NCBI RefSeq assembly: GCF_018129965.1 | Contig: NZ_JAFCKW010000005.1 | Coordinates: 62,001-126,000 of the forward strand | Length of the DNA: 64,000 nucleotides | Direction: 5' to 3' | Origin: Bradyrhizobium diazoefficiens | Lineage (GTDB): Bacteria > Pseudomonadota > Alphaproteobacteria > Rhizobiales > Xanthobacteraceae | Shown: in pieces, positions 11,397 to 42,711 of the stretch | Layout of the letters: each line of letters opens with the position of its first letter | Position numbering within the stretch: position 1 is the first letter of the stretch | The notes under the pieces: model-generated | The model's input: only the letters and a program-made list of their open reading frames with translations | The model's database searches: none | Told to the model about the DNA's origin: nothing | Translations under genes and position numbers: made by a program

Positions 11397-11647
11397 CGCC
11401 ACGCTGCGTGGTTGTTTGCTCAAGCAATAGACGCTAACCCATGGGGGAAGTGGTTCACGCGGTTCACATGCCGCGGTCCGTGCGGCGGAATCGTTACGCC
11501 AGAGTCTACGGTAGATCCCAACCTTTCTTTTCGTACGCCACGCTGCGAACAAGGTCAGCCACTTGTTGCGCGAAGCCGCTTTCTGCCTTTTCTAATCATC
11601 CCCATCCGAGGCCACCTGAAGTGTGCCTCGGCTCTTGGGGGACGGCG

Positions 11648-13202: not shown

Positions 13203-13210
13203 GCACTCTC

Positions 13211-16757: not shown

Positions 16758-16760
16758 TCG

Positions 16761-17966
16761 ATGGCTGGTACTGGCATTATCGATCAGTTCCTGGAGACGT
16801 TCACCCGGTACATCGATTCCGGCTTTGGATTGCTCGGAGGCGAAGTCGGGTATCTAGCCACGACGCTGGCGGCAATCGATGTCACACTGGCCGGCCTGTT
16901 CTGGGCCTGGGGAGCGGATGAGGACATTCTCGCGCGTCTTGTCAGGAAGACCTTGTTTGTTGGTGTCTTCGCTTTCCTGATCGGCAACTGGAACAGTTTG
17001 GCGCGCGTCATCTTCGAGAGTTTTGCCGGTCTGGGTCTGAAAGCCTCAGGCACTGGTCTTTCCTCGGCTGATTTTTTGAGGCCCGGTAAGATTGCCCAGG
17101 TCGGGCTCGATGCTGGACGACCGCTCCTCAAGTCGATTTGGGGCATGATGGGCTATGTCGGGATTGTCGAGAACTTTGCGCAGATCGCGATTTTGCTATT
17201 TGCCTGGATCGTCGTGCTGCTGGCCTTCTTTATTCTGGCGGTTCAGCTCTTCATCACCCTCATCGAGTTCAAGCTGACGACACTCGCTGGTTTCGTGCTG
17301 ATTCCGTTCGGGCTGTTCGGGAAGACCGCTTTTGCCGCCGAGCGCGTGCTGGGCAACGTGATTTCGTCCGGGATCAAGGTTCTGGTGCTAGCCGTCATCG
17401 TCGGCATCGGATCGACGTTGTTTGCGCAATTCACTTCGGGCTTCGGTGGTAATCAGCCGACGATCGATCAAGCTATGGCGCTGGTGCTGGGAGCACTTTC
17501 CCTTCTCGGCCTTGGTATTTTCGGACCCGGCATTGCCAACGGCATTGTATCCGGCGGACCGCAACTCGGCGCCGGCGCTGCGGCCGGAACCGGCTTGGCC
17601 GCTGGAGGCGCCATCGTTGCAGGTGCGGGTCTCGCAGCCGGTGGCGTCGGACTAGCCGGTGGCGCGCTCCTGGGCGGCGCCCGCGGGGCAGCCACGGCCG
17701 CGAGCGGGACAGCAAGTGCCTACCGGGCAGGAGGCTTGAGCGGTGTCGCGAGCGCCGGCGGCTCGGCGATCACAAGTCCGTTGCGCCGAATGGCTGCGAG
17801 GTTTGCAAGCGGTTCGCCAACGGCAGATGCGCCTCCGGCCTGGGCGCGCCGCATGAAGCGTGCGCAGGCAGTCAACCAGGGCGTGTCTGCTGCCACACAC
17901 GCTGTCCGCAGCGGCGATAGCGCTGGTGGCGGAGCCTCGGTCGATCTGTCCGAGGGAGGGCAGTGA
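16761..17966 (+). CDS. trbL: TrbL, VirB6-type polytopic channel protein
   Basis: A 401-residue inner-membrane protein starting 3 bases after trbK with a strong GGAAGGAG site. About six hydrophobic segments lie between residues 30 and 260, including IAILLFAWIVVLLAFFILAV. The C-terminal part from about residue 265 is rich in Gly and Ala (AAGGAIVAGAGLAAGGVGLA), as usual in TrbL, and ends in a polar tail. It forms part of the inner-membrane translocation pore. Confidence 0.9.
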   Translation: MAGTGIIDQFLETFTRYIDSGFGLLGGEVGYLATTLAAIDVTLAGLFWAWGADEDILARLVRKTLFVGVFAFLIGNWNSLARVIFESFAGLGLKASGTGLSSADFLRPGKIAQVGLDAGRPLLKSIWGMMGYVGIVENFAQIAILLFAWIVVLLAFFILAVQLFITLIEFKLTTLAGFVLIPFGLFGKTAFAAERVLGNVISSGIKVLVLAVIVGIGSTLFAQFTSGFGGNQPTIDQAMALVLGALSLLGLGIFGPGIANGIVSGGPQLGAGAAAGTGLAAGGAIVAGAGLAAGGVGLAGGALLGGARGAATAASGTASAYRAGGLSGVASAGGSAITSPLRRMAARFASGSPTADAPPAWARRMKRAQAVNQGVSAATHAVRSGDSAGGGASVDLSEGGQ

Positions 17967-18646
17967 TGTTCAAGCGACCGTCCGTTCATTATGGCCGTAC
18001 GCCGGAACCGGTGACGCCCTACCAGAAGGCTGCGCAGGTTTGGGACGATCGCATCGGCTCGGCGCGAGTCCAGGCCCGGAATTGGCGCCTGATGGCATTT
18101 GGATCTCTTGCCCTCGCAGCTGGGCTTGCCGCCGGTCTCGTCTGGCAATCCACGCAAGGCACGATCACGCCGTGGGTCGTGGAAGTGGACCATCTCGGTC
18201 AGGCCGAGGCGGTCGCGCCTGCGAGTCCCTTCTATCAGCCGACCGATCCGCAAATTGCCTTTCATCTCGCGCGCTTCATTGAAGACGTCCGAGGGCTGCC
18301 GACCGATGCCATTGTGTTGCGTCAGGATTGGCTCCGCGCCTATGACTTCACGACTGATCGCGGAGCGGCGGCGCTGAACGATTATGCGCGGACAAATGAT
18401 CCCTTCGCCAAACTCGGCAGCACGCAGGTTGCGGTCGAAATCTCCAGCGTCATCCGCGCCTCGCCGGAAAGCTTTCGGATCGCGTGGACCGAACGCCGCT
18501 ACGATAGCGGCCAACTCGCCGCGACCGAGCGCTGGACCGCGATCCTGTCCGTCGTGATTGAAACGCCGCGCGATGCTGATCGCCTGCGCAAGAACCCGCT
18601 TGGGGTCTACATCAATTCCATCAACTGGTCGAAGGAGCTTGGCTAG
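17963..18646 (+). CDS. trbF: TrbF, VirB8-type assembly protein
   Basis: A 227-residue bitopic protein. The cytoplasmic start FKRPSVHYGRTPEPVTPYQKAAQVWDDR is the family signature; one membrane segment (about residues 42-60) is followed by a periplasmic VirB8 domain with the FRIAWTERRYDSGQL block. VirB8-type proteins nucleate assembly of the secretion channel. It overlaps trbL (ATGA) and shares one base with the trbG start. Confidence 0.9.
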   Translation: MMFKRPSVHYGRTPEPVTPYQKAAQVWDDRIGSARVQARNWRLMAFGSLALAAGLAAGLVWQSTQGTITPWVVEVDHLGQAEAVAPASPFYQPTDPQIAFHLARFIEDVRGLPTDAIVLRQDWLRAYDFTTDRGAAALNDYARTNDPFAKLGSTQVAVEISSVIRASPESFRIAWTERRYDSGQLAATERWTAILSVVIETPRDADRLRKNPLGVYINSINWSKELG

Positions 18647-19629
18647 TGAAAAAGCCTGCACCGTCGTCGGTTGGTCTAAAGCGCAACGGCACGTCCGTGT
18701 GTCTCGTCCTTCTTTTTACGGTCGCGCTCTCCGGCTGTACAACCTTCAAGCCACCACAGATCACTTACGATGACGAGGTGGCGCCGTCACCCGATCTGCC
18801 CCTGCCGGTGGATGACCACGCGCGTCCACTACACGTACCACCACCTTGGACACCGGCCCGCGGCGGTAAGAAGGGTGACGAAGAGGCAAAGGACCCGACC
18901 GATCGCATCGAGATGGCCAACGATGTCGCGCGGGTCCAGCCCCGGCGCGCGGGATACTACAATGCCGTCCAGGTCTTTCCCTATAGTCCCGGCGCGCTCT
19001 ATCAGGTCTATGCTTCACCAGGACAGATCACCGACATCGCACTCGAACCGGGCGAGCAATTGACAGGTTCGGGTCCGCTGGCCGCGGGCGATACTGTGCG
19101 CTGGATCGTCGGCGATACCGAAAGTGGCAACGGCGAGACCAGGCGCGTTCATATCATGGTGAAGCCGACGAGACCTGCCATCGAGACGAACCTTGTCGTC
19201 AACACGGATCGAAGAACCTACTTGATCGAACTCCGCTCTCGCCAAAGGCTGTACATGCCCTCGGTGGCCTGGTTCTACCCGGAAGACCGAGGTGGACGCT
19301 CCAAGCCTCTGCCTCTAACACCGTTCATCCCGGAGGTGAGTGAGCGCCGCTACCGCTATGTCATTGAAGGTGACAGCCCTCCCTGGCGGCCAGTGAACGC
19401 CTATGATGATGGCCGCAAGGTCTATATCGAGTTCTCACCCGGGATTGCGCAGGGCGAAATGCCGCCGCTGTTCGTGATCGGCCAGGACGGCAAGCCGGAG
19501 TTGGTGAACTATCGAGTCTACAGGAATGTCCTGATTGCCGACCGTCTGTTCGCCGCGGCCGAGCTGCGGCTCGGCGGAGAGAAACAGCAGAAGGTCCGAA
19601 TTGTCAGGAATGACGGGAGACGGCTGTGA
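18646..19629 (+). CDS. trbG: TrbG, VirB9-type outer-membrane complex lipoprotein
   Basis: A 327-residue protein that starts with GTG overlapping the trbF stop. The signal peptide ends in the lipobox ALSGC (Cys about 31). The mature protein has the VirB9/CagX domain with GALYQVYASPGQITDIALEPGE near residue 110 and the C-terminal SPPWRPVNAYDDGRKVYIEF block. Together with TrbI it forms the core complex spanning the envelope. Confidence 0.92.
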   Translation: MKKPAPSSVGLKRNGTSVCLVLLFTVALSGCTTFKPPQITYDDEVAPSPDLPLPVDDHARPLHVPPPWTPARGGKKGDEEAKDPTDRIEMANDVARVQPRRAGYYNAVQVFPYSPGALYQVYASPGQITDIALEPGEQLTGSGPLAAGDTVRWIVGDTESGNGETRRVHIMVKPTRPAIETNLVVNTDRRTYLIELRSRQRLYMPSVAWFYPEDRGGRSKPLPLTPFIPEVSERRYRYVIEGDSPPWRPVNAYDDGRKVYIEFSPGIAQGEMPPLFVIGQDGKPELVNYRVYRNVLIADRLFAAAELRLGGEKQQKVRIVRNDGRRL

Positions 19630-20822
19630 CGGACAATGGCGCAGGCGAGAGCACCAATCCTGTATCTGGAACAAGGCAATCACCTTCTGGTAACGCGCAG
19701 GTCTTGCGACTGGGTGCGGAGCGCCCAAGGATCACGCGAGTTTCCCGGAAAATCCTTGCGAGCGGCAGCGCCCTGGCATTGCTGCTGGTCTCCGGGGCCG
19801 TTCTGTGGGCGCTCAGGAGCAACCATTCGCACAATCCCGCCCCCGACGAACTCTACAGCACGGATCATCACAACGTCGCAGAGGGCCTGACGACGTTGCC
19901 AAAGGACTATGCTGTCATTGCCCGCAACGCCCCACAGCTCGGGCCACCATCGCCAAGTGATCTGGGACGCCCTATCCTTACGGCAGAAGGCCAATCAGGA
20001 CCGATCGGCCTTGATGCTGAACAACAGCGCGCCAACCAGGAAACCGAGGCCGCGCGCACCAGCAAGGTGTTTGCTTCGACCACTGCGCCCGTTACGCCGC
20101 CGCATGCCGCATCTCAGGAAACCGGTACCGGCACTGCGTCATCTTCAGATGAAACCTTCGCCCAGAACGGCCAAGATCGCAAACTATTGTTCGTCAATGC
20201 TCCTGTTGATCGACGGACGACAGCACCTGACAGGCTTTCACGTCCCGCTTCTCCCTTTGTCATCCAGGCAGGAACGATCATTCCGGCGGCCTTGATCACA
20301 GGCTTGCGCTCCGACCTGCCGGGACAAATCACTGCGCAAGTTACCGAGAACATTTTTGATTCGCCGACCGGCCGCGCCAAGCTTGTGCCGCAGGGCGCCA
20401 GATTGATAGGCATTTACGACAGCCAGATCGCATTCGGCCAATCGCGGGTGTTGCTGGTATGGACGCGTCTAATCATGCCGAACGGTCGCTCCATCGTGTT
20501 GGAACGTCAACAGGGAGCGGACGCGGGCGGATATTCCGGTCTCGAGGATGAGGTCGACAATCACTGGGTCGAGCTGTTCAAGGCTGCGATGCTGTCGACC
20601 ATCCTCGGCGTTGGAGCGGAGCTTGGGTCGGGTGCGGATACAGGTGGCAACACGGATATTATTCAGGCGTTCCGCTTGAGCGCAGCGAATTCGCTGAATC
20701 AGACCGGTCAACAGGTTGTTCGAAGAAACCTCAATATTCAACCCACACTGACGATCAAACGGGGATTTCCGGTGAGGGTGATCGTCAATCGCGATCTAGT
20801 GCTCGAACCCTACAAGGGGTAA
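19626..20822 (+). CDS. trbI: TrbI, VirB10-type channel protein
   Basis: A 398-residue protein anchored by one hydrophobic segment (about residues 42-62). A long variable periplasmic linker of about 130 residues follows, then the VirB10 beta-barrel domain beginning near FVIQAGTIIPAALITGLRSDLPG and including GARLIGIYDSQIAFGQSRVLLVWTRL. It bridges the two membranes in the secretion core. It starts with GTG overlapping the trbG stop. Its TAA overlaps the start of the DUF2274 remnant, so it is the last intact gene of the trb operon. Confidence 0.92.
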   Translation: MTDNGAGESTNPVSGTRQSPSGNAQVLRLGAERPRITRVSRKILASGSALALLLVSGAVLWALRSNHSHNPAPDELYSTDHHNVAEGLTTLPKDYAVIARNAPQLGPPSPSDLGRPILTAEGQSGPIGLDAEQQRANQETEAARTSKVFASTTAPVTPPHAASQETGTGTASSSDETFAQNGQDRKLLFVNAPVDRRTTAPDRLSRPASPFVIQAGTIIPAALITGLRSDLPGQITAQVTENIFDSPTGRAKLVPQGARLIGIYDSQIAFGQSRVLLVWTRLIMPNGRSIVLERQQGADAGGYSGLEDEVDNHWVELFKAAMLSTILGVGAELGSGADTGGNTDIIQAFRLSAANSLNQTGQQVVRRNLNIQPTLTIKRGFPVRVIVNRDLVLEPYKG

Positions 20823-21062
20823 TGCTTGTGACGAAGATTAGTGCCATTGAAGATGACAAGCCAGTGACCTTGTCGATTAAATTGCCCACCGGCATTCATC
20901 GCGACTTGATTGCCTACGCGAAATCCTCGCGCGCGACAGTGGCCAATCCGTGATGATCCGGCATAGCTGATCGCACCAATGTTGGCGCGTTTCATGGCGA
21001 CTGACCGCGGTTTTGCAAGATCCCGAAGGGCGTCTCACGGGGCCACCGGACCGAAGGGATAG
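20822..21062 (+). pseudogene. Frameshifted DUF2274 gene at the end of the trb operon
   Basis: The frame from ATG 20822 encodes 43 residues with the DUF2274 start (DDKPVTLSIKLPTGIHRDLIAYA) and stops at 20951. The missing C-terminal half is present in the +1 frame from 20955: DPA, then a TAG at 20964-20966, then LIAPMLARFMATDRGFA. So the gene has both a frameshift and a nonsense codon. Intact DUF2274 proteins of about 75-80 residues normally end this operon in related elements. The 3' end overlaps the converging LysR gene. Confidence 0.8.
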
Positions 21063-21991
21063 CGCTCGGCAAGTAACTTAAGGAGGTTTTGGAGGGCAGG
21101 ATTCTCGTTGTCCGCCCACCAGACCGCTGAAAAGCCGATGCGGCTTGGCCCCGTCCCGTCGCGCAACTCCCGATAGACCAGACCGGAAAAGTTGGCGCCA
21201 ATATCGGATTCCAGTACAAGACTGATGCCAAATCCCACTGCGATCAAGCTTTTGATGACCCCACGGCTCACATCATGACGTTCGATCCGTGGCCGATCAC
21301 CAGGGGAGGTCAGCTTTGCATTCAAGAGATCCTCAAGCTCGCGGCCTGGATCATATTGACTGAGCAGAACAGTCTGATCCCGCAGATCCGTCCAGTAAAT
21401 GACTTCGCGCGCGGCCAAAGGATGATCACTCGGCAGAACGACCAGAATCCGTTCACTCCAGAGTGGAGTGGTTTTGGTATCGAAGGCTTGCGGATCGCCG
21501 GTTATGATGCTCACGTCGATGACGCCGTTGCGGAGCGACGTTGCGAGCCGCGTTCTCGATCTCTCGACGGTTACAAGTTCGACCTGCGGGAATAGCTTTT
21601 TAAAATCGAGCAATGTCGCGCGCAGATTGCCTGCCGTCAGCGAAGTACAGAACCCGATGACGAGACGACCTGCTTCGCCAGATCCACTCGCTCTTGTCGA
21701 TGCGATCAGCGCCTCGATTTGTTCCAGTATCGAGCGCGTCATGCGCAGAAAGTGACGACCTGCTGGCGTTGCGCGAACGCCACCACTTGACCGCTCGAAG
21801 ATGACGACGCCAATCGAGTGCTCAAGTAGCTGGACAGAACGACTGAGTGTCGATTGCTTTATCGACAATGCATGGGCGGCTTGTCGAAAGCTCCCGTAAT
21901 CTGCTGCAGCGACTGCGTGTTGAAGTTGACTGAAGAGAACGGTTGAGCGTCGTCCCCCGACGGACAGGCCGGCAAAATTCGTATTGTCCAT
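21035..21991 (-). CDS. LysR-family transcriptional regulator
   Basis: A 318-residue LysR regulator. The helix-turn-helix lies at about residues 20-80 (AAADYGSFRQAAHALSIKQSTLSRSVQLLE, then IFERSSGGVRATPAG), and the effector domain extends to the C-terminus with GRLVIGFCTSLTAG at its start. LysR genes convergent with the end of trb operons are common in Rhizobiales elements and may belong to the transfer module. It could instead regulate the catabolic genes, but none of its expected T-N11-A sites is obvious there. No co-inducer can be predicted. Confidence 0.85.
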   Translation of the reverse strand: MDNTNFAGLSVGGRRSTVLFSQLQHAVAAADYGSFRQAAHALSIKQSTLSRSVQLLEHSIGVVIFERSSGGVRATPAGRHFLRMTRSILEQIEALIASTRASGSGEAGRLVIGFCTSLTAGNLRATLLDFKKLFPQVELVTVERSRTRLATSLRNGVIDVSIITGDPQAFDTKTTPLWSERILVVLPSDHPLAAREVIYWTDLRDQTVLLSQYDPGRELEDLLNAKLTSPGDRPRIERHDVSRGVIKSLIAVGFGISLVLESDIGANFSGLVYRELRDGTGPSRIGFSAVWWADNENPALQNLLKLLAERYPFGPVAP

Positions 21992-22075: not shown

Positions 22076-22498
22076 TTACTCCGTGAGCAGCCGAGTCACG
22101 GCGCTCCAGACAAGGCAGAGTATTGCTCGAACCGGCAAATTTCGATGCGACCGTTTCTGGAAATCCACGAGCGTTGCCCGCAGATTCCTGGCGGAAATCG
22201 ATGTATAGAAGCCAAGGGACAGCCGTCCCGCTTCGCCACGGCCGACGTGGTGCGTGCTCTTCGCCAGCGAATCCATCTGTTCCAGGATTGATCGAGCAGT
22301 TCGGAGAAAATCTCGTCCAGCCATCGTTGCTCGCACCCCGCCGCTGGATCGCTCGAAGACGGTCATACCGAGTGAATGTTCGAGCTGGCTAATGCAACGG
22401 CTAAGCGTGGATTGCCGAAGCAACAATACTTCGGACGCGCGCCGAAAGCTCCCGTGACCCGCTGCTGCCACAGCGTATCGAATATTCTGCAGATCGAC
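22076..22498 (-). pseudogene. Truncated LysR-family regulator
   Basis: A LysR N-terminal domain closely related to the neighbouring intact regulator (SFRRASEVLLLRQSTLSRCISQLEHS, then VFERSSGGVRATMAG, then GEAGRLSLGFYTS). Similarity starts near 22498 (DLQNIRYAVAAAG), but the usual start codon is missing and only a GTG at 22471 inside the domain is available. After RNLRATLVDFQKR the frame diverges into unrelated sequence and ends at 22076, so about 180 residues of effector domain are gone. This is a remnant of a second paralogue and suggests deletion or rearrangement at the junction. Confidence 0.8.
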
Positions 22499-22590: not shown

Positions 22591-23685
22591 TCAACTCACC
22601 CATTCTTGCGCGACGGCGGCCTCGTGCCTGCAGCGCTCGGGAGCCCCAAGAAGCTGCCGGTTGAACGCAATGCGCTTGAACCAGTAATGAAGGCCGAGCA
22701 GGTCCGTAAATCCCATGCCGCCATGAATCTCGGTCGCAAGCCGGGCGATTTCGCGTCCGGCATCGCCCAGGTGCGCCTTTGCCTGCAGCGCGGCAGCGCG
22801 CGCTTCCTCGGCAGGCCCGTCCTGAGCGTGAGCCGCGTACCAGACCAACGAGCGGCACGGCTCGAGCATGGTGATAATGTCGGCAAGCGTATGCTTGACG
22901 GCTTGAAACGAACCAATCACACGATTGAACTGAACCCGCTCTTTGGAATAGAGCAGCGCCTTGTCAAACATGGACTGCGCCGCCCCCAGCGTGTCGCCTG
23001 CGAGCATGACGCGACCTGCGTCGAGCACGGCGGTCGCCGCTGCCTTCGGGTCGTTGGCGGCACCAAGGATCGCAGCCCTCGCATCATGCAATACCAAAGC
23101 CGTTACCGGTCGCGTGCGATCCAAGCTGCGATGCGTGCTTACGCTGACACCGGGTTCCTCGACCGCAGCGAACAGGGCAGCACGGCCGTCACCCAAATAA
23201 ACGATGAAATGCGTCGCATCTCCGCCATCGAGCACACCCGTTATGCATCCGGACAGTTTATTTCCGTCAAGGCGGGCGACTGCTTCGCCGGTCTGGCCCG
23301 ACATGCCGGCGAACCCGACCCCGATCCGGACTTCGCCGCTTGCGATCCGCGGCAGCCATGCTTTTTGCTGGGCGCGGTCTCCACTTGCAATCAGGGTGAG
23401 GGGGGCCATGACCAGCGCAGCCGTGAATGGCGTTGGTGCTGCGTGATACCCGAGTGCCTCCGCGGCAACAGCTGCATCAAGCAGCGAGAGGCCCAGACCC
23501 CCAAAGTCCTCGGGGACCATGATGCCCATGATGCCTTGCTCGGCAAGGCCCGACCATAGTTCACCATCGAAGCCCAAGCCGCCCTCGGCAATCTCGCGCA
23601 ACTTGTTCATGGGCAGTCTTTCGTCCAGAAAGCCGCGCAAGGACTCCGTGAGCATTAATTGCTCTTCGCTGAGACCGAACTCCAT
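22591..23685 (-). CDS. Acyl-CoA dehydrogenase subunit, apparently without catalytic base
   Basis: A 364-residue acyl-CoA dehydrogenase fold protein of the short FadE type (EFGLSEEQLMLTESLRGFLDERL start, SKERVQFNRVIGSFQAVKH, then EIHGGMGFTDLLGLHYWFKR). The Glu used as base by most family members is not seen at either known place: the isovaleryl-type position reads DAGRVMLAGD and the MCAD-type loop reads FKRIAFNRQLLG. It is translated from the stop codon of the next dehydrogenase (overlap at 23688-23691; ATG 23685 has AGAGGG upstream). The pair resembles heterotetrameric FadE pairs such as ChsE1-ChsE2, in which one subunit is structural. Confidence 0.85.
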   Translation of the reverse strand: MEFGLSEEQLMLTESLRGFLDERLPMNKLREIAEGGLGFDGELWSGLAEQGIMGIMVPEDFGGLGLSLLDAAVAAEALGYHAAPTPFTAALVMAPLTLIASGDRAQQKAWLPRIASGEVRIGVGFAGMSGQTGEAVARLDGNKLSGCITGVLDGGDATHFIVYLGDGRAALFAAVEEPGVSVSTHRSLDRTRPVTALVLHDARAAILGAANDPKAAATAVLDAGRVMLAGDTLGAAQSMFDKALLYSKERVQFNRVIGSFQAVKHTLADIITMLEPCRSLVWYAAHAQDGPAEEARAAALQAKAHLGDAGREIARLATEIHGGMGFTDLLGLHYWFKRIAFNRQLLGAPERCRHEAAVAQEWVS

Positions 23686-23687
23686 GC

Positions 23688-24905
23688 TCACCCTCTCACG
23701 GCTGGTGGGACGGACTTCGGCTCGCGCGGCAGGCCCAGCCCGCGCTCGCCGATGATGTTCTTCTGAATATTCGATGAGCCACCACCGATGATGAGGCCGA
23801 TGTCGTACATGTTATCGATTTGCCAGGTGGTGGCTTCGTCGTCTTCCGCCGCTTCGCCGACCGGTTCGTAAGCGAGGCCCGCCGCACCGAGCACGTCGAC
23901 GACCAGCGATGACAGCCGATACGCAATCATCGTCCCGTTCAACTTGACGATCAAGCGCTTGACCCCCGAATCCTCTCCCTTCGCCTGCTCGGTCATTAGT
24001 CGAAGACCGTGGTATTTCGAGGCCATCACCTCGCCCTGGAGTTTCAGCAAGCGCTCGCGATACTCGGGGATGTCGATGAATCGGCAGCCATCGAGCGTCG
24101 TTTTTTTCATCAATTCGACAGCCCTTGCCAGACGGTAGGTCAACTTGTTGGCGTCGCCGAGCAGCATCCGTTCGTACTTTAAGGTGACATTGGCGACATG
24201 CCAGCCGTCGCCGCGTCCCATCACAATCTGGTCGGTTGGCACGCGGACATCCGTGAAGAACGTCTCGTTGAACTCGGCGCGGCCGGTCATTGTGACCAAT
24301 GGGCGCACCTCAATGCCAGGCGCATTCATGGGGACAAGAAGATAGGACAGCCCATCGTGCTTGCTCTTGTCGGACTCTGTGCGACAAAGAAGGAACATCA
24401 TGTCGGCGTAATGGGCAGAACTCGTCCAGATTTTCTGGCCGTTGACGATGAATTGGCCGTCCTCGACACGGGCGCTGGTTTTGGCGGCGGCAAGGTCGGA
24501 GCCCGAACCGGGCTCCGAATAGCCCTGGCACCAAATGATGTCACCGCGGATGGTAGGCCCGATCCATCGAATGCACTGCTCCTTCGTTCCGACCTCGAGC
24601 AATGTCGGCACCAGCATGGAAATGCCCTGGTTCATGATGCCTGGAGACACGCCCGCGTTCGAGAACTCTTCGGCGATGATGGCCAGTTCCATGATGTCGA
24701 CCGGCAGGCCGAAGCCGCCATATTCGCTGGGAATGTTGCGCGAAAAATAGCCGCGCTCCAGCAGAAGCTTCTGCCAATCCAGGGCTCTCGCGTCAGGCCG
24801 CTTCCGTCCACCCCCCGTTTTCGGCGAAAGGTGGCCGTATTTCTTTACGAAGCCGCGCGCTTCCTCCTGGAGGGCGCGATGTCGGGCGCTGTAGCGGAGG
24901 TCCAT
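23688..24905 (-). CDS. Acyl-CoA dehydrogenase, catalytic partner subunit
   Basis: A 405-residue acyl-CoA dehydrogenase with IWCQGYSEPGSGSDLAA and the IVNGQKIWTSSAHYADMMF box for FAD and substrate binding. The likely base is Glu in LKYERMLLGD, the place used by isovaleryl- and long-chain acyl-CoA dehydrogenases. The MCAD-type loop (IGGGSSNIQKNI) has Gly instead. It is coupled to the subunit at 22591 and diverges from the thiolase-like gene at 25116. The palindrome at 24994 lies between them, so both arms are probably co-regulated. Together they would introduce the alpha,beta double bond of a branched or cyclic acyl-CoA. Confidence 0.88.
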   Translation of the reverse strand: MDLRYSARHRALQEEARGFVKKYGHLSPKTGGGRKRPDARALDWQKLLLERGYFSRNIPSEYGGFGLPVDIMELAIIAEEFSNAGVSPGIMNQGISMLVPTLLEVGTKEQCIRWIGPTIRGDIIWCQGYSEPGSGSDLAAAKTSARVEDGQFIVNGQKIWTSSAHYADMMFLLCRTESDKSKHDGLSYLLVPMNAPGIEVRPLVTMTGRAEFNETFFTDVRVPTDQIVMGRGDGWHVANVTLKYERMLLGDANKLTYRLARAVELMKKTTLDGCRFIDIPEYRERLLKLQGEVMASKYHGLRLMTEQAKGEDSGVKRLIVKLNGTMIAYRLSSLVVDVLGAAGLAYEPVGEAAEDDEATTWQIDNMYDIGLIIGGGSSNIQKNIIGERGLGLPREPKSVPPAVRG

Positions 24906-24993
24906 AGAGATGCGCTTTCCCAGGCGCGGTTTGTGCCTGTTGCTCTACACGGAAAGGACGAGCCACGGTCGATTGACCGCGCTACGGATTAAA

Positions 24994-25009
24994 TCTAACA
25001 TCTGTTCGA
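24994..25009. promoter_or_regulatory. Operator palindrome, copy 1
   Basis: TCTAACATCTGTTCGA, between the divergent acyl-CoA dehydrogenase and thiolase-like genes. It is identical to copy 5 and differs by few bases from the other six copies. Arms CTAAC and GTT(A/C)G are separated by 4 bases, a layout typical of TetR-family sites. Confidence 0.75.
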
Positions 25010-25115
25010 AATAGTCGTGCCTTAGGTGACCGGCGTCAAGTAGAAAGCTTGAACGATTGTTCCTTCGTCACGGAAATCGTTCAGGCGTTGCGAGCCTCCG
25101 TGGGAGCTTTGCCTC

Positions 25116-26267
25116 ATGTCACTGAAAGAAAAGGCCGCCATCACTGGCGTGGGAGAGACCGAGTACACGCGCATGTCGGGCAAGAGCGTACTTGCGCTTC
25201 AGCTCGAGGCTTCGTTGAATGCGATTGCGGATGCGGGGCTCAGTCCCAAGGAAATCGACGGCATTATTCCATACTCGAACTCGCCGGTCGTAGCCGAAGA
25301 CTTCGTCACAAATTTCGGTATATCCGACCTGCGCTTTTCGGCCACTGCGCCGCTCGGCGGAGCCAGCTGCGTCGCGGCCATACAATGTGCGCTGCTGGCG
25401 ATCAGCGGCGGCGTCTGCAATCACGTGCTGATACCGATCGGGCGTAACGGCTCGTCCGCAGGCCGCATCGGCACGCGGGTTCAGCAAATGCCCCAGTTCA
25501 AGGTGGTGGGCGAGTACGAGATGCCGGTGGGCGCGATCGCCCCGGCACAACTCTATGCGCCGATGGCGCGTCGCCACATGGAGCTGTTCGGCACGACGAG
25601 TTTGCAGCTTGGCGAAATCGCGGTCTCTACCCGTCACAATGCCATTCTCAACGGCCATGGGATGATGACGAAGCCCCTGACGATCGAGGATCATCAGGCC
25701 TCTCGCATGATCTCCGATCCCTTGAGGCTCTATGACTGCAGCCTGGAAAGCGACGGCGGCGCGGCGATCGTGGTCAGCGGCGCAGACCGGGCAAGCGATC
25801 TTCGCAAGCCACCGGTTTACATCATGGGGGCCGCCGAGGGGCACCCGGATTCCCCGAGCGTCATCACGCAACGCCCGGATTTGACGCGGCTTGGAATCGC
25901 CAAGGCGGCGCCCAAGGCCTTCGCCATGGCCGGCGTGTCGCCCGGGGATATCGACGTGGCCGAGATCTACGACTGCTTCACCTACATCGTTCTGTGTCAG
26001 CTCGAAGACCTCGGCTTTTGCAAGAAAGGCGAGGGCGGCCCGTTTGTCGCGAGCGGAGCCATTCGGCTTGGCGGAAAATTGCCGGTCAACACCCACGGCG
26101 GCCTGCTTTCTCAGGCGCATATGGTCGGCATGAACCATATTGTCGAACTTGTCCGTCAACTCAGGGGCGAAGCCGGCAAGGCCCAGGTCAAGGGCGCCGG
26201 GATCGGCCTGGTGACGGGTTACGGCGACATGGGCGACGGGTCCGTCGCGATCATGCGTAGGGGGTGA
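25116..26267 (+). CDS. Thiolase-like protein (SCP-x/Ltp2 type), possible retro-aldolase
   Basis: A 383-residue member of the thiolase superfamily, lipid-transfer-protein branch (AAITGVGETEYTRMSG start; DCSLESDGGAAIVVSG; AEIYDCFTY; PVNTHGGLLSQAHM with the conserved His). At the place of the thiolase nucleophile Cys the sequence reads PLGGASCVAAI, so the canonical Cys is not clearly kept, and the C-terminal CxG loop reads TGYGDMGDG. With the DUF35 protein encoded next, it resembles Ltp2-DUF35 pairs that split beta-hydroxyacyl-CoAs of branched chains by retro-aldol cleavage. A plain thiolase remains possible. Confidence 0.8.
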   Translation: MSLKEKAAITGVGETEYTRMSGKSVLALQLEASLNAIADAGLSPKEIDGIIPYSNSPVVAEDFVTNFGISDLRFSATAPLGGASCVAAIQCALLAISGGVCNHVLIPIGRNGSSAGRIGTRVQQMPQFKVVGEYEMPVGAIAPAQLYAPMARRHMELFGTTSLQLGEIAVSTRHNAILNGHGMMTKPLTIEDHQASRMISDPLRLYDCSLESDGGAAIVVSGADRASDLRKPPVYIMGAAEGHPDSPSVITQRPDLTRLGIAKAAPKAFAMAGVSPGDIDVAEIYDCFTYIVLCQLEDLGFCKKGEGGPFVASGAIRLGGKLPVNTHGGLLSQAHMVGMNHIVELVRQLRGEAGKAQVKGAGIGLVTGYGDMGDGSVAIMRRG

Positions 26268-26689
26268 GCGCCATGACCGCCGAGGCCTACCTCAAGCCCG
26301 TTCCCGAGCCGACCCATGAGTCCCGGCCTTATTGGCATGGACTGAAAAGCGGACGGCTGCTGCTTCAGAAATGCGGGCAATGCGGCAAGATCCGTCACTA
26401 TCCGCGACCGGTTTGCGACGCCTGTTATTCGTTCGAGGTGAACTGGATTGAGGCCTCCGGCCGGGGAACGGTCCATAGCTGGACGATCACCCATCACGCC
26501 TTCAATCCCGGATTCAAGCTCGAAGTCCCGTACATCCTGGTGACTGTCGACCTCGACGAAGGCGTGCGGATGCAAGTCCCCCTGCGCGGCGCCGGAGCGG
26601 CCGACGTCAAACTCGGACTGCCGGTTCGCATCATTTTCGAACAGGCCAGGCCCGACCTGGTGACTCCCGCCTGCGTAATCGCCTCGTGA
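26264..26689 (+). CDS. DUF35 (zinc ribbon/OB-fold) partner of the thiolase-like protein
   Basis: A protein of about 138 residues with an N-terminal zinc ribbon (KCGQCGKIRHYPRPVCDAC, two CxxC pairs) and an OB-fold with GRGTVHSWTITHHAFNPGF and LVTVDLDEGVRM. DUF35 proteins bind acyl-CoA enzymes of the thiolase/aldolase class and are needed for their activity or stability. It overlaps the upstream gene by 4 bases (GTG 26264); ATG 26273, spaced better from GGGGG, is probably the true start. Confidence 0.85.
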   Translation: MSAMTAEAYLKPVPEPTHESRPYWHGLKSGRLLLQKCGQCGKIRHYPRPVCDACYSFEVNWIEASGRGTVHSWTITHHAFNPGFKLEVPYILVTVDLDEGVRMQVPLRGAGAADVKLGLPVRIIFEQARPDLVTPACVIAS

Positions 26690-26716
26690 CCATCTCCTAA
26701 CCGGACCGGCATCAGC

Positions 26717-27577
26717 ATGACCATCGACGTTGACGCGCTACGCAAGCATATCGGGACGAAAATCGTCGAGCAGGATGTCGCCACCCAGGCCCCGCTCCGG
26801 GGACTCGCGGTGACCTTCGATCGGGAGGAGCGAATTCCCGCAACCGGGGAAGCGATCCCGCCCGGGTGGCATCTGGTGTATTTCGCGGCTCTGTCGCCCA
26901 AGGCGAGCCTCGGCGACGATGGATTGCCGACATCTGGCGGCGTTCTGCCGCCGATGCCGTTTCCACGGCGCATGTATGCGGGAACCGAACTGAGCTTCCA
27001 CGATCCGCTTCGCGTCGGCGATGCGCTGACGCGCGAGACCGAGTGCAGCGATATCTCGCTGCGGTCGGGGGCTACGGGCACATTGATCTTCGCAACCCAG
27101 ACCCGCCGCATTTTCACGCCGCGCGGGCTCGCGCTCGTAGAACAGAGCCACACCGTGTTCCGCGAAGAAGTGAAGCCTGGAGAGAAGAGCGCCACACCGA
27201 AAAGGAACAAGCCGCCAGCCGATACACCGTGGCGCCGGGCGATTACGACGGACCCGGTTTCCTTGTTCCGCTATTCCGCGCTGACTTTCAACCCGCACCG
27301 CATTCATTACGACCGGGACTATGCGATGCGCGTCGAAGGTTATCCCGGCCTTGTCGTGCATGGACCCTACTCGCAGCAGTGCCTGATCGACCTTGCGCGC
27401 GATCACGCTCCGGAAAAAACGCTAAAATCGTTTACGCAGCGCGCCCGTGCACCACTGTTCGACACGGCGCCTTTCAGCGTCGTTGGCCGCGCCGTTGACG
27501 GCGAAAAAGGAGCGGAGCTGTGGGCCCTCACACCGGAGGGAACCATCGCCATGGAAGTCACAATACGATACGCGTGA
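26717..27577 (+). CDS. MaoC-type enoyl-CoA hydratase with FAS1-like dehydratase domain
   Basis: A 286-residue double-hotdog protein. Residues 1-150 form the FAS1-like dehydratase domain (GWHLVYFAALSPKASLG, MPFPRRMYAGTELSFHDPLRVGDALT). Residues 170-286 hold the hydratase motif SALTFNPHRIHYDRDYAMRVEGYPGLVVHGP, with the Asn-His pair of the MaoC active site. Relatives hydrate mesaconyl-C4-CoA, itaconyl-CoA or long branched enoyl-CoAs. Here it would hydrate the product of the dehydrogenase pair at 22591/23688 before cleavage by the thiolase-like enzyme. It starts 27 bases after the DUF35 gene. Confidence 0.85.
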   Translation: MTIDVDALRKHIGTKIVEQDVATQAPLRGLAVTFDREERIPATGEAIPPGWHLVYFAALSPKASLGDDGLPTSGGVLPPMPFPRRMYAGTELSFHDPLRVGDALTRETECSDISLRSGATGTLIFATQTRRIFTPRGLALVEQSHTVFREEVKPGEKSATPKRNKPPADTPWRRAITTDPVSLFRYSALTFNPHRIHYDRDYAMRVEGYPGLVVHGPYSQQCLIDLARDHAPEKTLKSFTQRARAPLFDTAPFSVVGRAVDGEKGAELWALTPEGTIAMEVTIRYA

Positions 27578-27851
27578 GAACAATGGTTAATGCAAAAGTT
27601 GTTTTGACGGATATCAATGATTGTGGCCAATCCTCGCTTCTGTGTAAGCAGTTATGCCCCGAAGCGCGCGTTAGCTTAAAGAAGCTCCGCCGCAAAGCCG
27701 ATGATGTTTAAGCAGCCATGTGGGTTGACTTCACGATAGACGATCTGGCGATCCTTCAGGCTCAGCTACGGCTGCTCATGGCGCAACCCGCGAGTGTAGA
27801 TCGTGCGGCCGACGAGTGGGATCAAAAGAGCGCGGGACGGGCAATTTGAGA

Positions 27852-28712
27852 ATGATCGCTTCTAGGGTTGGCAAAATTGCAACGTTGACGTCGGACAACG
27901 TGAATAGCGGCGCTCCGCTTCTGCATTTCGCACATGCGACCGGCTTCAATGCGGAAACGTATCGACGCTTGCTGGAGCAGCTATCAGCAAGATTCCGTGT
28001 CGTCGCGTCCGACGCGCGTGGACATGGACGCACCACATTGCCAGCAATTCCGGAAAGGCTAACAAGTTGGGAGACCTATGAATCGGACCTTGAGGAGCTT
28101 CTTGGCGTTTACAAGGAGCCTGCCTTCCTCGTGGGTCATTCGATCGGTGCAACCGTCAGTGTGATGCTGGCGGCCCGACGGCCAGACTTGGTGCTCGGTG
28201 TGGGCCTGCTCGAGCCGTCATTTGTCCCATTCGAGAGGGCGTATCGAGTTGCGAGCGAGCGGCGGGAGGGGCGCATCGTGGATTTCGATATTGCAATCCA
28301 GGCGCGCAAGCGCCGATCGACATGGGCGTCCCTGCCGGAGATTCGCGAGTCTTATGCAAAGAAAGCAATGTTCGCCACCTGGCAAGACGGATTTCTTGAA
28401 GATTATCTTGAGGGCGGGTTGGTGTTTCTAGCAAACGATCAAATCCGGTTAGCATGTGATCCATCCTGGGAAGCTGCAACCTTCCAGGCCGCGACGACCG
28501 ATTTTTGGGACATTCTTCCTCGCTACAAAGGCAAGTTATTGTTGGCCTACGGCTCGCGATTTAGCACTGTAAGTGATGCCGATGCGAAGAAGATTGTCGA
28601 ACTTGCACCTCAAACTCGCGTATTCAATTTTCAGGAGAATAGCCATTTTCTTCCAATGGAACGGCCACAAGCACTATCTCGGCTGATTATGAGTGAGTTT
28701 GATAATTCCTAG
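27852..28712 (+). CDS. Alpha/beta hydrolase
   Basis: A 286-residue alpha/beta hydrolase. FAHATGFNAETY forms the oxyanion region, DARGHGRT follows, the nucleophile is Ser97 in VGHSIGAT, and the His is in NSHFLPMERP near residue 266. It probably cleaves an ester or lactone and could act on the product of the Baeyer-Villiger enzyme encoded downstream. ATG 27852 is preferred; an in-frame GTG at 27816 adds 12 residues. A gap of about 270 bases separates it from the MaoC gene and no operator copy is seen, so it may not belong to the same operon. Confidence 0.8.
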   Translation: MIASRVGKIATLTSDNVNSGAPLLHFAHATGFNAETYRRLLEQLSARFRVVASDARGHGRTTLPAIPERLTSWETYESDLEELLGVYKEPAFLVGHSIGATVSVMLAARRPDLVLGVGLLEPSFVPFERAYRVASERREGRIVDFDIAIQARKRRSTWASLPEIRESYAKKAMFATWQDGFLEDYLEGGLVFLANDQIRLACDPSWEAATFQAATTDFWDILPRYKGKLLLAYGSRFSTVSDADAKKIVELAPQTRVFNFQENSHFLPMERPQALSRLIMSEFDNS

Positions 28713-28954: not shown

Positions 28955-30703
28955 TCAGACTACTGGGACACGTTTGGCGGCGACGGCGGCCGGTGAAATG
29001 ACGTCGATATCGATCGGCACACGCCAGCGTTCGGTGTAGCGCACCTGCGGCGGCGCGTTGCTGGCTGGCGCGCCTTCCAGCACAAAGCCATCGAAGCCGC
29101 CGCTCATGACCTCGTTGCATTTCTGCACATAGACGGGGAATCCGCCGATATAGGGCATGAAGACGCGCGGCCGGCCGGGGATGTTGGCGCCGACATACCA
29201 GGAACTGCAGGTCGACCGCAGCGAGACCGTCGATACGTCGTTGACGTGCTCGACCCAGGCGTCCTCATCTTTCAGAACGGGCTCGATGGTCGCGGCCCCG
29301 ACGTCGCGCAGGTGGGCCATGCAGTCCGCCAGCCAGTCGACATGCTGCTCGATCGCCTGGATCATGCTGGCGAGCACCGAGGGGCTGCCGGGACCGGTGA
29401 TCGTGAACAGATTCGGGAAGCCTGCCGATGCGATACCGAGATAGGCGCGGGGGCCCGCCCGCCATTTCTCGGCCAGCGTCAGGCCGTTGCGGCCGGTGAT
29501 CCTGATTTTGTCGAACGATCCCGTCATCGCGGCAAAGCCGGTGGCGCAGACGACGGCGTCCAGTCCGTACTCGACACCGTCGACCTCGATGCCATCGGCG
29601 GTGAAGCGCTCGATCGGCGTCCGGGACACGTCGACCAGCTTGACGTGAGGCAAATTGTACGTCTCGAAGTAGCCGGTATCGACGCAGAGCCGCTTGCAGC
29701 CGAACACATTGTCCGGGGACAGCAGGTCCGCCGTCGCCGGGTCTTTCACGATGCTGCGGATCTTGCGCCGGGCGAAGTCGGCGATGGTGTCGTTGGCGGC
29801 CGTTTCGAACAGAAGATCGCCGTAGGCGCCGAGAAAGGGCAGACCGCCGCGGGCCCAGGCTTCCTCGTACTGCTGTTCACGCTCTTCCGGGCTCGCTTCC
29901 AGCGCCGGCCTGGTGTTGAAAGGAAAATAGAAGCCGGTCGGGCGGCCGCGCGCCTTTGCCCGCAGCGCCGGATACTCGGCCTTGGCCGCCTTCAGGTATT
30001 CCGGCGTCAGTTCCTCGTTCCGGGCCGGCACCGACCAGGTCGCGGTGCGCTGGAATACCGTGAGGCTTGCGGCCTGCTGCGCGATGATCGGAATCGACTG
30101 GATTGCCGAGGAGCCGGTCCCGATGACGCCGACACGCAGTCCGGTGAAGTCGACACCCTCCTGCGGCCATTCGCCGGTGTGATAGATCGGTCCGCGAAAG
30201 TCCTCGAGACCCCTGAAGCTCGGCCGGTTCGGCGCCGACAGGCAGCCGACGGCCATGATGCAGAACCTCGCCAAAACCCTGTCGCCGCGGTCGGTCTCGA
30301 TCAGCCAGCATTTGGCGTCTTCATCGAACGTTGCCGCGGTGACGCGCGTGTCGAACACGATATCCCGGCGCAGGTCGAAACGATCGGCAACGTGGTTGGC
30401 GTAGGAAAGGATCTCGGCCTGCGGCGCGTATTTCTCCGACCAGTTCCACTCCTGGTCCAGCTCCTCGGAGAAGGAGAATGAGTACTGCATACTCTCGACG
30501 TCGCAGCGTGCACCTGGATAGCGGTTCCAATACCAGGTGCCACCCACGCCACTGCCGGCCTCGAAGACCCGTGCCGAAAAGCTAAGCCCGCGCAGGCGAT
30601 GCAGCATGTACATCCCCGCAAAGCCCGCACCCACGATAACAGCGTCGAAAACTGTTCCCATTTCGCCTGGGCGCTCTTGTCGCGTTGTGGTGTCGGCAAT
30701 CAT
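28955..30703 (-). CDS. Baeyer-Villiger monooxygenase (flavin, NADPH)
   Basis: A 582-residue type I Baeyer-Villiger monooxygenase of the cyclohexanone/steroid monooxygenase kind, inserting oxygen next to a ketone to give an ester or lactone. The FAD motif GAGFAG is at residues 25-30, the family fingerprint FRGPIYHTGEWP at 169-180 (F169, G171, H175, W179), and the second nucleotide motif GTGSSA at about 195. ATG 30703 has AGGAG upstream; an open frame to 30889 gives an N-terminus without homology. It is separated from the liv operon by a stem-loop at 30977. A cyclic ketone substrate fits the alicyclic theme but is not shown. Confidence 0.92.
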   Translation of the reverse strand: MIADTTTRQERPGEMGTVFDAVIVGAGFAGMYMLHRLRGLSFSARVFEAGSGVGGTWYWNRYPGARCDVESMQYSFSFSEELDQEWNWSEKYAPQAEILSYANHVADRFDLRRDIVFDTRVTAATFDEDAKCWLIETDRGDRVLARFCIMAVGCLSAPNRPSFRGLEDFRGPIYHTGEWPQEGVDFTGLRVGVIGTGSSAIQSIPIIAQQAASLTVFQRTATWSVPARNEELTPEYLKAAKAEYPALRAKARGRPTGFYFPFNTRPALEASPEEREQQYEEAWARGGLPFLGAYGDLLFETAANDTIADFARRKIRSIVKDPATADLLSPDNVFGCKRLCVDTGYFETYNLPHVKLVDVSRTPIERFTADGIEVDGVEYGLDAVVCATGFAAMTGSFDKIRITGRNGLTLAEKWRAGPRAYLGIASAGFPNLFTITGPGSPSVLASMIQAIEQHVDWLADCMAHLRDVGAATIEPVLKDEDAWVEHVNDVSTVSLRSTCSSWYVGANIPGRPRVFMPYIGGFPVYVQKCNEVMSGGFDGFVLEGAPASNAPPQVRYTERWRVPIDIDVISPAAVAAKRVPVV

Positions 30704-30976
30704 GGCTCGTGTCGTCTCCTTGCAGGTCGACGAAGCTAATCGAGATAAAGCTCTTTCTCCGCAGGCGCCAAAGGGTTCGCAAATAAAGCCTGAGAAATTC
30801 ATCTCGTACGCCGGCTCGCCTATTAATTCCTGATTTTTATATTTTGGTAGGCGGGCAGGGCAATGCACCAGTGGCCGAAGCTGGTACATGGCGGATCTAA
30901 ACGCAGAGCTGGCTAGCTATATGCCGCAGGCGGACGGCATCGGAGATATTTGCAATGGAATGGAATCAGCACCAAC

Positions 30977-31021: not shown

Positions 31022-32269
31022 TCATTTTTGAGTTTCAGACTTGGCATAATCCGCCGACTGCTCTTTCACGACGCTCCAGACGTCGTCTTGAAAGCCGGCG
31101 ATCCAATCGGTTTGCGGGACCCATTTACCTCCGTCCCACATTTCAATGCGTGTCTTGCCGCCGCCGCCATGATCCTGTGCCGTGACTGTAATAGGTGCAA
31201 TCAGCCCGTTAGCATCGTAATTTTTCAGACTCTCAAGACCAGCCTTAATTTTGTCGGGTGTTAGCGGCCAACCGCCATTCTTGATCGCAAGGCGGGCGCC
31301 TTCGAATGCGATCGAGTAGATCGCAAGACCAGTGTTGTAGTAGACGTCCTCGGTAAATTTACGGTCACCGTTGCCTTTGCCTTTGTCGTAAAGCTCTTTG
31401 ATAATCTGCTGAACCAACGGCTGATTTGAGCCGCCGGCGACGTTGGTGCCGCGTTTCAATCCCTTAGCGACATCGGGCCCAATATTCTTGATGTCGACCT
31501 CGTTGAGCCAATTAACGGCGATATACTTTTCAATCGAGATCCCGTTGCGCTTCATCTCGCGCGACGCGATCACATGCATATTCGACAGGCTCCAGCTCAC
31601 AATCCAGTCCGGGTTGAGACGACGGATCTGCGTCCATGCCGAGGCCTGATCGTTGCCCGGCAGCGGATACGGCACGAGTTGCAACTCGAAACCTTCCTTC
31701 TGCGCCAGCGTCTTTAAGATGCCGATCGGTTCCTGTCCGAACGGATAATCGATATAAAAGAACGCGACCTTGACGCCCTTCAGAGTTCCGCCGGACTTCT
31801 GTTTGATGTATTCGATGTCATTGGCGGCCTGACCCCAGTAGGTCGGTCCGATCGGAAATACCCATTTGAACACGTTGCCATCGACCGCATCCCCGCGACC
31901 GACCAGTGACTGGATCAGGATGTTGCCATCCTTCATGATGCGCGGAAGGACCGCGCGCGATACCGGCGTCGACAACATGTCGAACACCATCACGCCTTCG
32001 CGTTTCAGGCGTTCGTAGCATTCGATGCCGCGTTGCGGCTCGTTGCCATGGTCCTGAACGATCAGTTCGATCGGATGGCCTTCGAGACCGCCCTTCGCAT
32101 TGAGAAGGTCGGCATAGTCGCGCACAGCCTGGGCAATCTGCGGCGTGACGAACGTATAGGCTTTACTCAGGTCATAGCACAGAGCGAAGCGGACCGGATC
32201 GGCCGCGGCAGCAGGCACGACGTTGAACAACGCCAACGCTAGTCCGGCTAGTATAGATAGTAATTTCAT
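31022..32269 (-). CDS. ABC transporter substrate-binding protein (LivK/HAAT type)
   Basis: A 415-residue periplasmic binding protein of the branched-chain amino acid/aromatic acid family. The signal peptide (KLLSILAGLALALFNVVPAAAA) is cut near residue 23. The mature protein has AVRDYADLLNAKGGLEGHPIELI and an FFYIDYPFGQEP motif. Members of this family in photosynthetic and soil alphaproteobacteria often bind aromatic or alicyclic acids. The start has a strong GGGGAGGA site, suggesting high expression. It is the last gene of the liv operon. Confidence 0.88.
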   Translation of the reverse strand: MKLLSILAGLALALFNVVPAAAADPVRFALCYDLSKAYTFVTPQIAQAVRDYADLLNAKGGLEGHPIELIVQDHGNEPQRGIECYERLKREGVMVFDMLSTPVSRAVLPRIMKDGNILIQSLVGRGDAVDGNVFKWVFPIGPTYWGQAANDIEYIKQKSGGTLKGVKVAFFYIDYPFGQEPIGILKTLAQKEGFELQLVPYPLPGNDQASAWTQIRRLNPDWIVSWSLSNMHVIASREMKRNGISIEKYIAVNWLNEVDIKNIGPDVAKGLKRGTNVAGGSNQPLVQQIIKELYDKGKGNGDRKFTEDVYYNTGLAIYSIAFEGARLAIKNGGWPLTPDKIKAGLESLKNYDANGLIAPITVTAQDHGGGGKTRIEMWDGGKWVPQTDWIAGFQDDVWSVVKEQSADYAKSETQK

Positions 32270-32356
32270 TTTACCGATCCTCCCCTGGTTGACTGAGTGA
32301 ACTGAGCAAATTTTAATGATTCCAGCTTTTATCGAACGGCGTACATCTGGCGATCG

Positions 32357-33163: not shown

Positions 33164-33180
33164 GGCGTTCGTGCTTCCCG

Positions 33181-34254: not shown

Positions 34255-34258
34255 GTTC

Positions 34259-35146: not shown

Positions 35147-35149
35147 GCT

Positions 35150-42670: not shown

Positions 42671-42711
42671 GATGGAACTCCATTTTGTTTTGGCGAAATT
42701 AACGGCCGACC

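Follow-up and report, generated by a model that had tools for sequence, protein, structure and literature searches.

Aldolases of the thiolase fold that work with a DUF35 partner are already known, as are igr-like gene sets in proteobacteria; in Comamonas testosteroni TA441, roles for ORF40-44 were shown by gene disruption (PMC12502768). Catalytic residues are described for two such aldolases in PMC12329534: Tyr294 (of YDHF) and Tyr344 in TcLtp2, and Tyr302 and Cys304 of YDCY in CtSal, which has Gln352 where Ltp2 has Tyr344. Here, we analyzed a 64,000-nucleotide stretch of Bradyrhizobium diazoefficiens (contig NZ_JAFCKW010000005.1 of assembly GCF_018129965.1, positions 62,001 to 126,000; hereafter the window) and focused on a gene module at positions 22591-27577, which a sequence-only reading of this DNA had likened to the igr operon of Mycobacterium tuberculosis. 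The likeness held for the order of the chemistry, the loss of the thiolase cysteine, and the best fold matches (Ltp2 and Sal), but not for membership in the igr/Ltp2 group itself. We suggest that the module probably encodes a coenzyme A (CoA)-ester pathway in which retro-aldol cleavage takes off a side chain that thiolysis cannot remove.

All five open reading frames of the expected divergent arrangement are present. On the minus strand lie the genes for a small acyl-CoA dehydrogenase subunit (ACADs; 22591-23691, 366 amino acids [aa]) and a large one (ACADl; 23688-24905, 405 aa). On the plus strand lie those for a candidate thiolase-fold retro-aldolase (THL1; 25116-26267, 383 aa), a DUF35 partner (26264-26689, 141 aa), and a hydratase made of two fused hotdog halves (HTD2; 26717-27577, 286 aa). 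The ACADs and ACADl genes overlap by 4 base pairs (bp), as do the THL1 and DUF35 genes, and a gap of 210 bp separates the divergent ACADl and THL1 genes. As proposed earlier, DUF35 is a separate protein with its own gene, not fused to the hydratase, and the hydratase has two domains.

We aligned 87 THL1 sequences (the window protein, six copies from plasmids, and one match, partial in a single case, from each of 80 genome loci) and fixed the position of the nucleophilic cysteine by alignment with two thiolases. THL1 itself matches Thiolase_C_1 in Pfam. At the nucleophile position, all 87 clade proteins have a glycine (Gly82), and all 87 keep both Tyr285, which stands at the position of the HDxF histidine, and His335. 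Cys287 is found in 86 of the 87, i.e., the motif reads YDCF in 86 proteins and YDGF in one. Because Ltp2 pairs its tyrosine with Tyr344, and CtSal its Tyr-Cys dyad with Gln352, the Tyr-Cys/His335 set of THL1 is a third combination, a Sal-type dyad with a thiolase-type histidine.

An AlphaFold model of THL1 (mean pLDDT 82.9, pTM 0.87; pLDDT below 50 at residues 114-123, 127-142, and 329-333) found its best fold match in the Ltp2 aldolase 6ok1 (Z 51.4, root-mean-square deviation 1.7 over 356 residues), followed by the Sal aldolase 9myr (Z 48.5), 4u4e (47.5), the thiolase 7yvy (45.1), and ThlA1 4dd5 (32.8). In a tree of 51 rows, including two thiolases, the THL1 clade (19 rows, support 100/99) is sister to an Ltp2 group (98/85), to which it is joined at 100/99. 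This Ltp2 group consists of TcLtp2, one protein of plasmid pIBU218, and three others, the four besides TcLtp2 being unassayed; CtSal, which pairs with P_L036, and the IpfD candidate fall outside the THL1 and Ltp2 grouping. All 49 non-thiolase rows combine YDxF or YDxY with a glycine in place of the thiolase cysteine, so the loss of the cysteine characterizes the wider family, beyond the THL1 clade, and a large part of this family may be misnamed in public records, under such names as thiolase or acetyltransferase. Since the nucleophilic cysteine is lost, the active-site set is conserved, aldolases come first among the fold matches, and the clade is sister to Ltp2, we consider thiolysis by THL1 unlikely and retro-aldol cleavage likely.

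Two related aldolase types were seen along the way. Plasmid pIBU218 (L097) carries an Ltp2-like gene (939-2093; YDHF plus Tyr), whose product is the sister of TcLtp2 (100/99), with a DUF35 gene (2120-2503); both lie apart from IpfD/IpfE. In a genome of the same taxonomic order (L036), one protein has YDCY and Gln and joins CtSal at 100/99; this order therefore probably includes Sal-type aldolases as well.

The DUF35 protein matches zf-ChsH2 and OB_ChsH2_C in Pfam, with a zinc ribbon and an OB fold; the ribbon (C-x2-C-x10-C-x2-C) is of the C4 type and not the Sal-type C3H1. For the dehydrogenases, the best PDB matches were 6wy8_A (Tcur3481) for ACADs and 4x28_A and 6wy8_B for ACADl; we take 4x28 and 6wy8 to be steroid acyl-CoA dehydrogenase heteromers. 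The PimC, PimD, and IpdE2 models match the pair far below their cut-offs (ACADl is PimC-like, with 211 bits against a cut-off of 624), and Pfam did not detect a middle domain in ACADs. We tabulated the motifs of ten pairs, from the window, four genome loci, and five sphingomonad plasmids. A catalytic-type glutamate within (Y/H)ER (YER in the window) is present in ACADl and absent from ACADs in all ten, and an EGT-type motif at the C-terminal position was seen in neither subunit of any of them. ACADs nevertheless retains R-x-QF...SFQ and HGGMGFT, presumably the motifs that contact flavin adenine dinucleotide (FAD). As these half-site motifs are complementary in 10/10 pairs, the sequences favor one shared active site per ACADl/ACADs pair. 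Two independently active homotetramers, the arrangement that the sequence-only reading had named as contrary to it, are disfavored by the restriction of the catalytic-type glutamate to the large subunit.

HTD2 is a FAS1_DH-type hydratase by its Pfam and NCBIfam matches, and its closest match of known structure is itaconyl-CoA hydratase (8huc/8khg; E ~1e-48 over residues 17-271, covering both hotdog halves). The product of itaconyl-CoA hydratase carries a tertiary beta-hydroxyl, and a tertiary beta-hydroxyacyl-CoA is not cleavable by thiolysis. The N and C halves of HTD2 match two adjacent small proteins encoded 3' of DUF35 in Reyranella (L112); HTD2 is thus a fusion of parts that are split elsewhere.

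We surveyed THL1 relatives in public genomes, using the best 80 of 580 confirmed. DUF35 lies immediately 3' of THL1 in 78 of these 80, and one of the two loci without an adjacent DUF35 gene (L168) ends at a contig edge; the recurrence of the module is therefore not due to chance. The dehydrogenase pair, THL1, and DUF35 occur together in five of the 80 loci (L098, L100, L112, L119, and L177, in the stretches fetched) and also on five of nine plasmid loci inspected. Gene calling missed THL1 in 5 of the 80 loci, and its gene borders are rough. Among the matches listed, the nearest THL1 in a named genome is 96% identical and belongs to a metagenome-assembled genome titled Bradyrhizobium sp. (L098), followed by those of B. 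campsiandrae (84%) and Pseudoroseomonas rhizosphaerae (83%). More distant relatives from the same taxonomic order (45-48% identity; L009-L011), which are YDCF-plus-Tyr rows placed beside Ltp2 in the tree, lie next to DUF35 and SDR genes, and the dehydrogenase pair and HTD2 are absent from the stretches fetched for them. The host genome (7.13 Mb, scored 100% complete, with the window on a 410-kb contig) has seven DUF35 matches and at least nine THL1-like matches, so THL1-DUF35 is one of several such pairs in it. A second thiolase-like/DUF35 pair lies in the window itself (50293-51899, minus strand), near CoA ligase and nitroreductase genes; its thiolase-like protein has YDCF and likewise lacks the thiolase cysteine.

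In the pathway that we propose, a heteromer of ACADl and ACADs, with one FAD and one catalytic glutamate per pair, would form a 2-enoyl-CoA, which HTD2 would hydrate to a beta-hydroxyacyl-CoA, probably with a tertiary hydroxyl on a ring carbon or a methyl-branched carbon. THL1-DUF35 would then split the C-C bond to give a ketone and acetyl-CoA or propionyl-CoA, with Tyr285 as the base and Cys287 as the acid (the Sal pattern) and with His335 replacing Tyr344 of Ltp2. A neighboring Baeyer-Villiger monooxygenase could turn the ketone into a lactone or ester, to be opened by a hydrolase. Not all parts of this scheme are equally firm. The sequences show which parts are present, the missing thiolase cysteine, the conserved active-site residues, and the dehydrogenase half-sites, whereas the chemistry and the substrate are inferred from these, and the THL1-DUF35 and dehydrogenase complexes from motifs and relatives. 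The retro-aldol reaction by THL1-DUF35 is likely, and the release of a ketone by the module is somewhat favored. Alicyclic or terpenoid acids are a plausible substrate class, at a little under an even chance, and the hand-over of the ketone to the monooxygenase is more tentative still.

The gene for this monooxygenase (28955-30889, minus strand; 644 aa) lies beyond that for an alpha/beta hydrolase, ABH1 (27816-28712, plus strand), which its domain and family matches mark as a possible lactone or ester hydrolase. The monooxygenase best matches the steroid monooxygenase 4ap1/4ap3 in the PDB (641 bits), then phenylacetone monooxygenase (618 bits), and reaches 289 bits of a cut-off of 1100 on the NCBIfam model PtlE. 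Its PDB homology begins only at residue ~70-80; either a misplaced start codon or an N-terminal extension could explain this. Further along, the minus strand encodes an ATP-binding cassette importer of the branched-chain amino acid type (binding protein, permeases, and ATPases; 31022-37862), with a CoA ligase gene (35150-37081) inside the importer genes, and then a thioesterase (37987-38409) and a further alpha/beta hydrolase (38527-39411). Next on that strand come a candidate MenB/BadI-like hydrolase (41888-42952; 254 of 468 bits on the BadI model and 269 of 380 on a MenB-type model) and a BadH-like dehydrogenase (42712-43530; 221 of 431 bits on the BadH model). The BadI-like frame as called shares 241 bases with the BadH-like gene; since its domain begins only near residue 97, translation of this frame probably starts further downstream. 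Other genes of the cluster encode two carboxyltransferases, a biotin carboxylase, more dehydrogenases, and CoA ligases, one of which scores on CasG (246 of 750 bits, below the cut-off). An OYE-type reductase (61571-63637) scores 384 of 825 bits on BaiCD and is also under the cut-off of the mycofactocin-OYE model. Directly upstream of the catabolic cluster are type IV secretion genes (T2SSE-type ATPase, TraG/CagE-type, and CagX; 11441-20822, plus strand), and the 410-kb contig possibly belongs to a mobile element or plasmid.

Several of these neighbors recur with the module elsewhere. By annotation, each of five sphingomonad plasmids has a single gene string made up of an NMO-family gene, THL1, DUF35, ACADl, ACADs, a CoA ligase, an NAD(P)/FAD oxidoreductase, and an alpha/beta hydrolase, with a P450 and a ferredoxin. 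In the three of the five plasmids that were compared, the NAD(P)/FAD oxidoreductase is related to the window monooxygenase at 38-39%, and the one P450 tested, from Sphingobium pF2, is closest to CYP153A7. The same pF2 has counterparts of the thioesterase and its adjacent alpha/beta hydrolase (53% and 51%). Beside the module in B. campsiandrae are genes for a ligase and an NMO-family protein, along with a P450 whose closest match is P450cin. On a Reyranella contig of 134,868 bases (L112), the module is flanked by monooxygenases, and the contig also has counterparts of the importer, ligase, hydrolase, BadH-like, and BadI-like proteins (32-84% identity); importer counterparts adjoin the module in L177 as well. 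A monooxygenase lies in the fetched stretch at 3/6 independent loci with the dehydrogenase pair versus 4/75 THL1 loci without it; this is a post hoc comparison (Fisher p 0.007), with thresholds of 38% identity and half of the query picked after the loci had been inspected. For this count, the five sphingomonad plasmids were taken as one locus, as were the window and L098; the actinobacterial plasmid loci L078, L079, and L081 were omitted, and truncated contigs were included uncorrected.

A number of observations weigh against the proposed pathway. The dehydrogenase pair is missing from 75 of the 80 THL1 loci in the stretches fetched, many of which are on short contigs, and the sampled neighbors of THL1 elsewhere are MaoC-type hydratases, CoA-transferases, an amidase, and tripartite-carrier binding proteins; the clade may therefore serve several substrates. 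HTD2 (at 45% identity or more) adjoins THL1 in only 4 of the 80 loci, and no gene of the sphingomonad strings is annotated as an HTD2-type hydratase. Relatives of HTD2 at 58-61% identity (L082-L086) were found away from THL1, which is absent from the stretches fetched around them, and on this ground we rejected HTD2 as a marker of the module. In THL1, His335 is a residue that thiolases retain, and the poorly modeled loop 329-333 directly precedes it. No monooxygenase match was found in the stretches fetched for L100, L119, and L177, half of the six independent loci that have the pair. Comparing the monooxygenase of the window with those of L112 and of three sphingomonads gave values of only 36-43% between groups, so a common ketone substrate need not be assumed. 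At E 1e-5, blastp did not match ABH1 to the hydrolase next to the sphingomonad monooxygenase. Finally, the BadH- and BadI-like scores are below the family cut-offs, and a much stronger BadI match (451.5 bits) lies elsewhere in the genome, on contig C12.

We weighed the pathway against three other explanations. Public annotation would make THL1-DUF35 a thiolase or acyltransferase: its relatives are recorded as thiolase, transporter, or acetyl-CoA acetyltransferase, and His335 occupies the position of the thiolase catalytic histidine. The absence of the nucleophile-position cysteine from all 87 clade proteins and the replacement of HDxF by YDxF/YDxY in all 49 non-thiolase tree rows make this very improbable. 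We also think it very unlikely that this is a true igr-type steroid module of the Ltp2 family, in which propionyl would be cut off a C22 steroid acid. The sister position of THL1 to the Ltp2 group, the 6ok1 fold match, the resemblance of the dehydrogenases to steroid heteromers and of the monooxygenase to steroid monooxygenase, and the sub-cut-off scores on BaiCD and CasG all point that way, but the YDHF/Tyr344 set of Ltp2 is replaced by YDCF/His335, DUF35 is free, and the neighbors are BadH/BadI-like, carboxylase, and importer genes. HsaD is a marker of steroid ring degradation. It had no match above the cut-off in this genome, which is scored 100% complete (best 78.7 of 400 bits), although the control genomes had none either, leaving the search without a positive control. 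The check for steroid degradation rested on this single marker, and no search for other steroid markers was made. Because a monooxygenase, BadH/BadI-like enzymes, CoA ligases, and an importer are present and HsaD is under its cut-off, the context leads away from steroids, and from this one marker and the gene neighborhood steroid use looks unlikely.

Alternatively, the module could shorten 3-methyl-branched acyclic chains, the aldolase freeing a methyl ketone from which the monooxygenase makes an acetate ester. Steroid and phenylacetone monooxygenases, to which the window monooxygenase is closest, both act on methyl ketones, and the cluster includes two carboxyltransferases and a biotin carboxylase. 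However, carboxylase routes would leave the aldolase superfluous for such chains, and the BadH/BadI-like genes point to rings; we regard this explanation as improbable. The side-chain removal by retro-aldol cleavage proposed above thus remains our preferred interpretation.

Regulation of the module was also considered. The sequence-only reading had assumed an operator shared by the two divergent transcription units. The sole candidate found is an inverted repeat, TGAACGATT-N16-AATCGTTCA (25050-25083), which sits beside THL1, off-center in the divergent gap. When the bases of the intergenic region were shuffled 2000 times, 53 of the shuffles contained a perfect inverted repeat of 9 bp with a gap of up to 40; across the window, such repeats occur at 0.08 per 213 bp. 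The pattern has a single site in the whole genome. In the 96%-identical relative L098, one arm is mutated, and the repeat was not found in the corresponding region of B. campsiandrae L177. Being near chance level and not conserved in the closest relatives, the repeat leaves the shared operator unsupported, and we rejected it. By domain and family matches, a LysR-type protein (21035-21991, minus strand) is a candidate local regulator. Its intact gene is adjoined by a 131-aa LysR fragment (22076-22471, minus strand) with only the helix-turn-helix domain, which looks like a decayed tandem copy.

Branched and ring-bearing acids, such as terpenoids, alkylcycloalkanes, and naphthenic acids, block ordinary beta-oxidation, and to our knowledge, the genes for the step that frees a ring ketone are poorly known. 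As a speculation that we hold at well below even confidence, THL1-DUF35 might form a separate, non-steroid aldolase clade, which record titles place in several bacterial phyla and which frees ring or methyl ketones from tertiary 3-hydroxyacyl-CoAs for a Baeyer-Villiger monooxygenase. If our preferred model is right, a family filed under "thiolase," "transporter," and "lipid-transfer protein" would be an aldolase family, with the THL1 clade having its own active-site set, and a relay of dehydrogenation, hydration, retro-aldol cleavage, and Baeyer-Villiger oxidation would become readable from genomes. In keyword searches of the open-licence literature, we found nothing in print on the THL1 clade, on its set of active-site residues, or on its link with a monooxygenase.

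Among described systems, Ltp2-ChsH2 (6ok1 from Thermomonospora curvata; igr of M. tuberculosis) shares with this module a thiolase fold with a DUF35 partner, the tyrosine of YDxF, the glycine at the thiolase-cysteine position, a C4 zinc ribbon, and a gene set with a hydratase and a dehydrogenase pair, which here is probably heteromeric. It differs in having YDHF and Tyr344 where THL1, in a sister clade, has YDCF and His335. In igr, moreover, DUF35 is fused to the hydratase (ChsH2), whereas here DUF35 is free, the hydratase is a fused HTD2-type protein closest to itaconyl-CoA hydratase, and the neighborhood has no recognized steroid genes. The tacit assumption that igr-like modules are new outside mycobacteria does not hold, as ORF40-44 of C. 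testosteroni TA441 comprise a dehydrogenase pair, hydratase, aldolase, and DUF35; the Ltp2 of that set shares 61-64% identity with Ltp2 of actinobacteria, its DUF35 is fused to MaoC, and the genes lie in a steroid cluster (PMC12502768). Sal-Shy of C. testosteroni (9myr; PMC12329534) has the same Tyr-x-Cys dyad and a DUF35 partner, but it differs in its Gln352 (His335 in THL1), YDCY (YDCF here), C3H1 zinc ribbon (C4 here), separate clade, and a fused MaoC-DUF35 protein, which this module lacks. The mrc genes for monoterpene ring cleavage in Castellaniella defragrans offer, as types, a BadH/BadI-like pair and an acyl-CoA dehydrogenase, with neither a DUF35 aldolase nor a monooxygenase described in the accessible part of PMC4109377.

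IpfD/IpfE of ibuprofen degradation likewise consist of a thiolase-fold protein and DUF35; IpfD belongs to another clade, with YDAF and a tyrosine at the THL1 His335 position. We located this pair on pIBU218 from what we take to be the gene order, ipfABDEF. IpfD/IpfE remove a propionyl side chain adjoining a ring C-OH, and in the ipf pathway a dioxygenase makes the hydroxyl, not a dehydrogenase and hydratase. The closest parallel in chemistry is the degradation of cyclohexylacetate in Arthrobacter CA1 through (1-hydroxycyclohexan-1-yl)acetyl-CoA lyase (EC 4.1.3.35), for which we know of no gene; keyword searches of the open-licence literature found no paper on this link. The aldolase reaction itself is firmer than this analogy. 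The order of that route, i.e., dehydrogenation, hydration, release of a cyclic ketone and acetyl-CoA, and Baeyer-Villiger oxidation, matches the order predicted here, and if the clade acts as we speculate, THL1-DUF35 may supply the missing gene for lyases of the cyclohexylacetate type.

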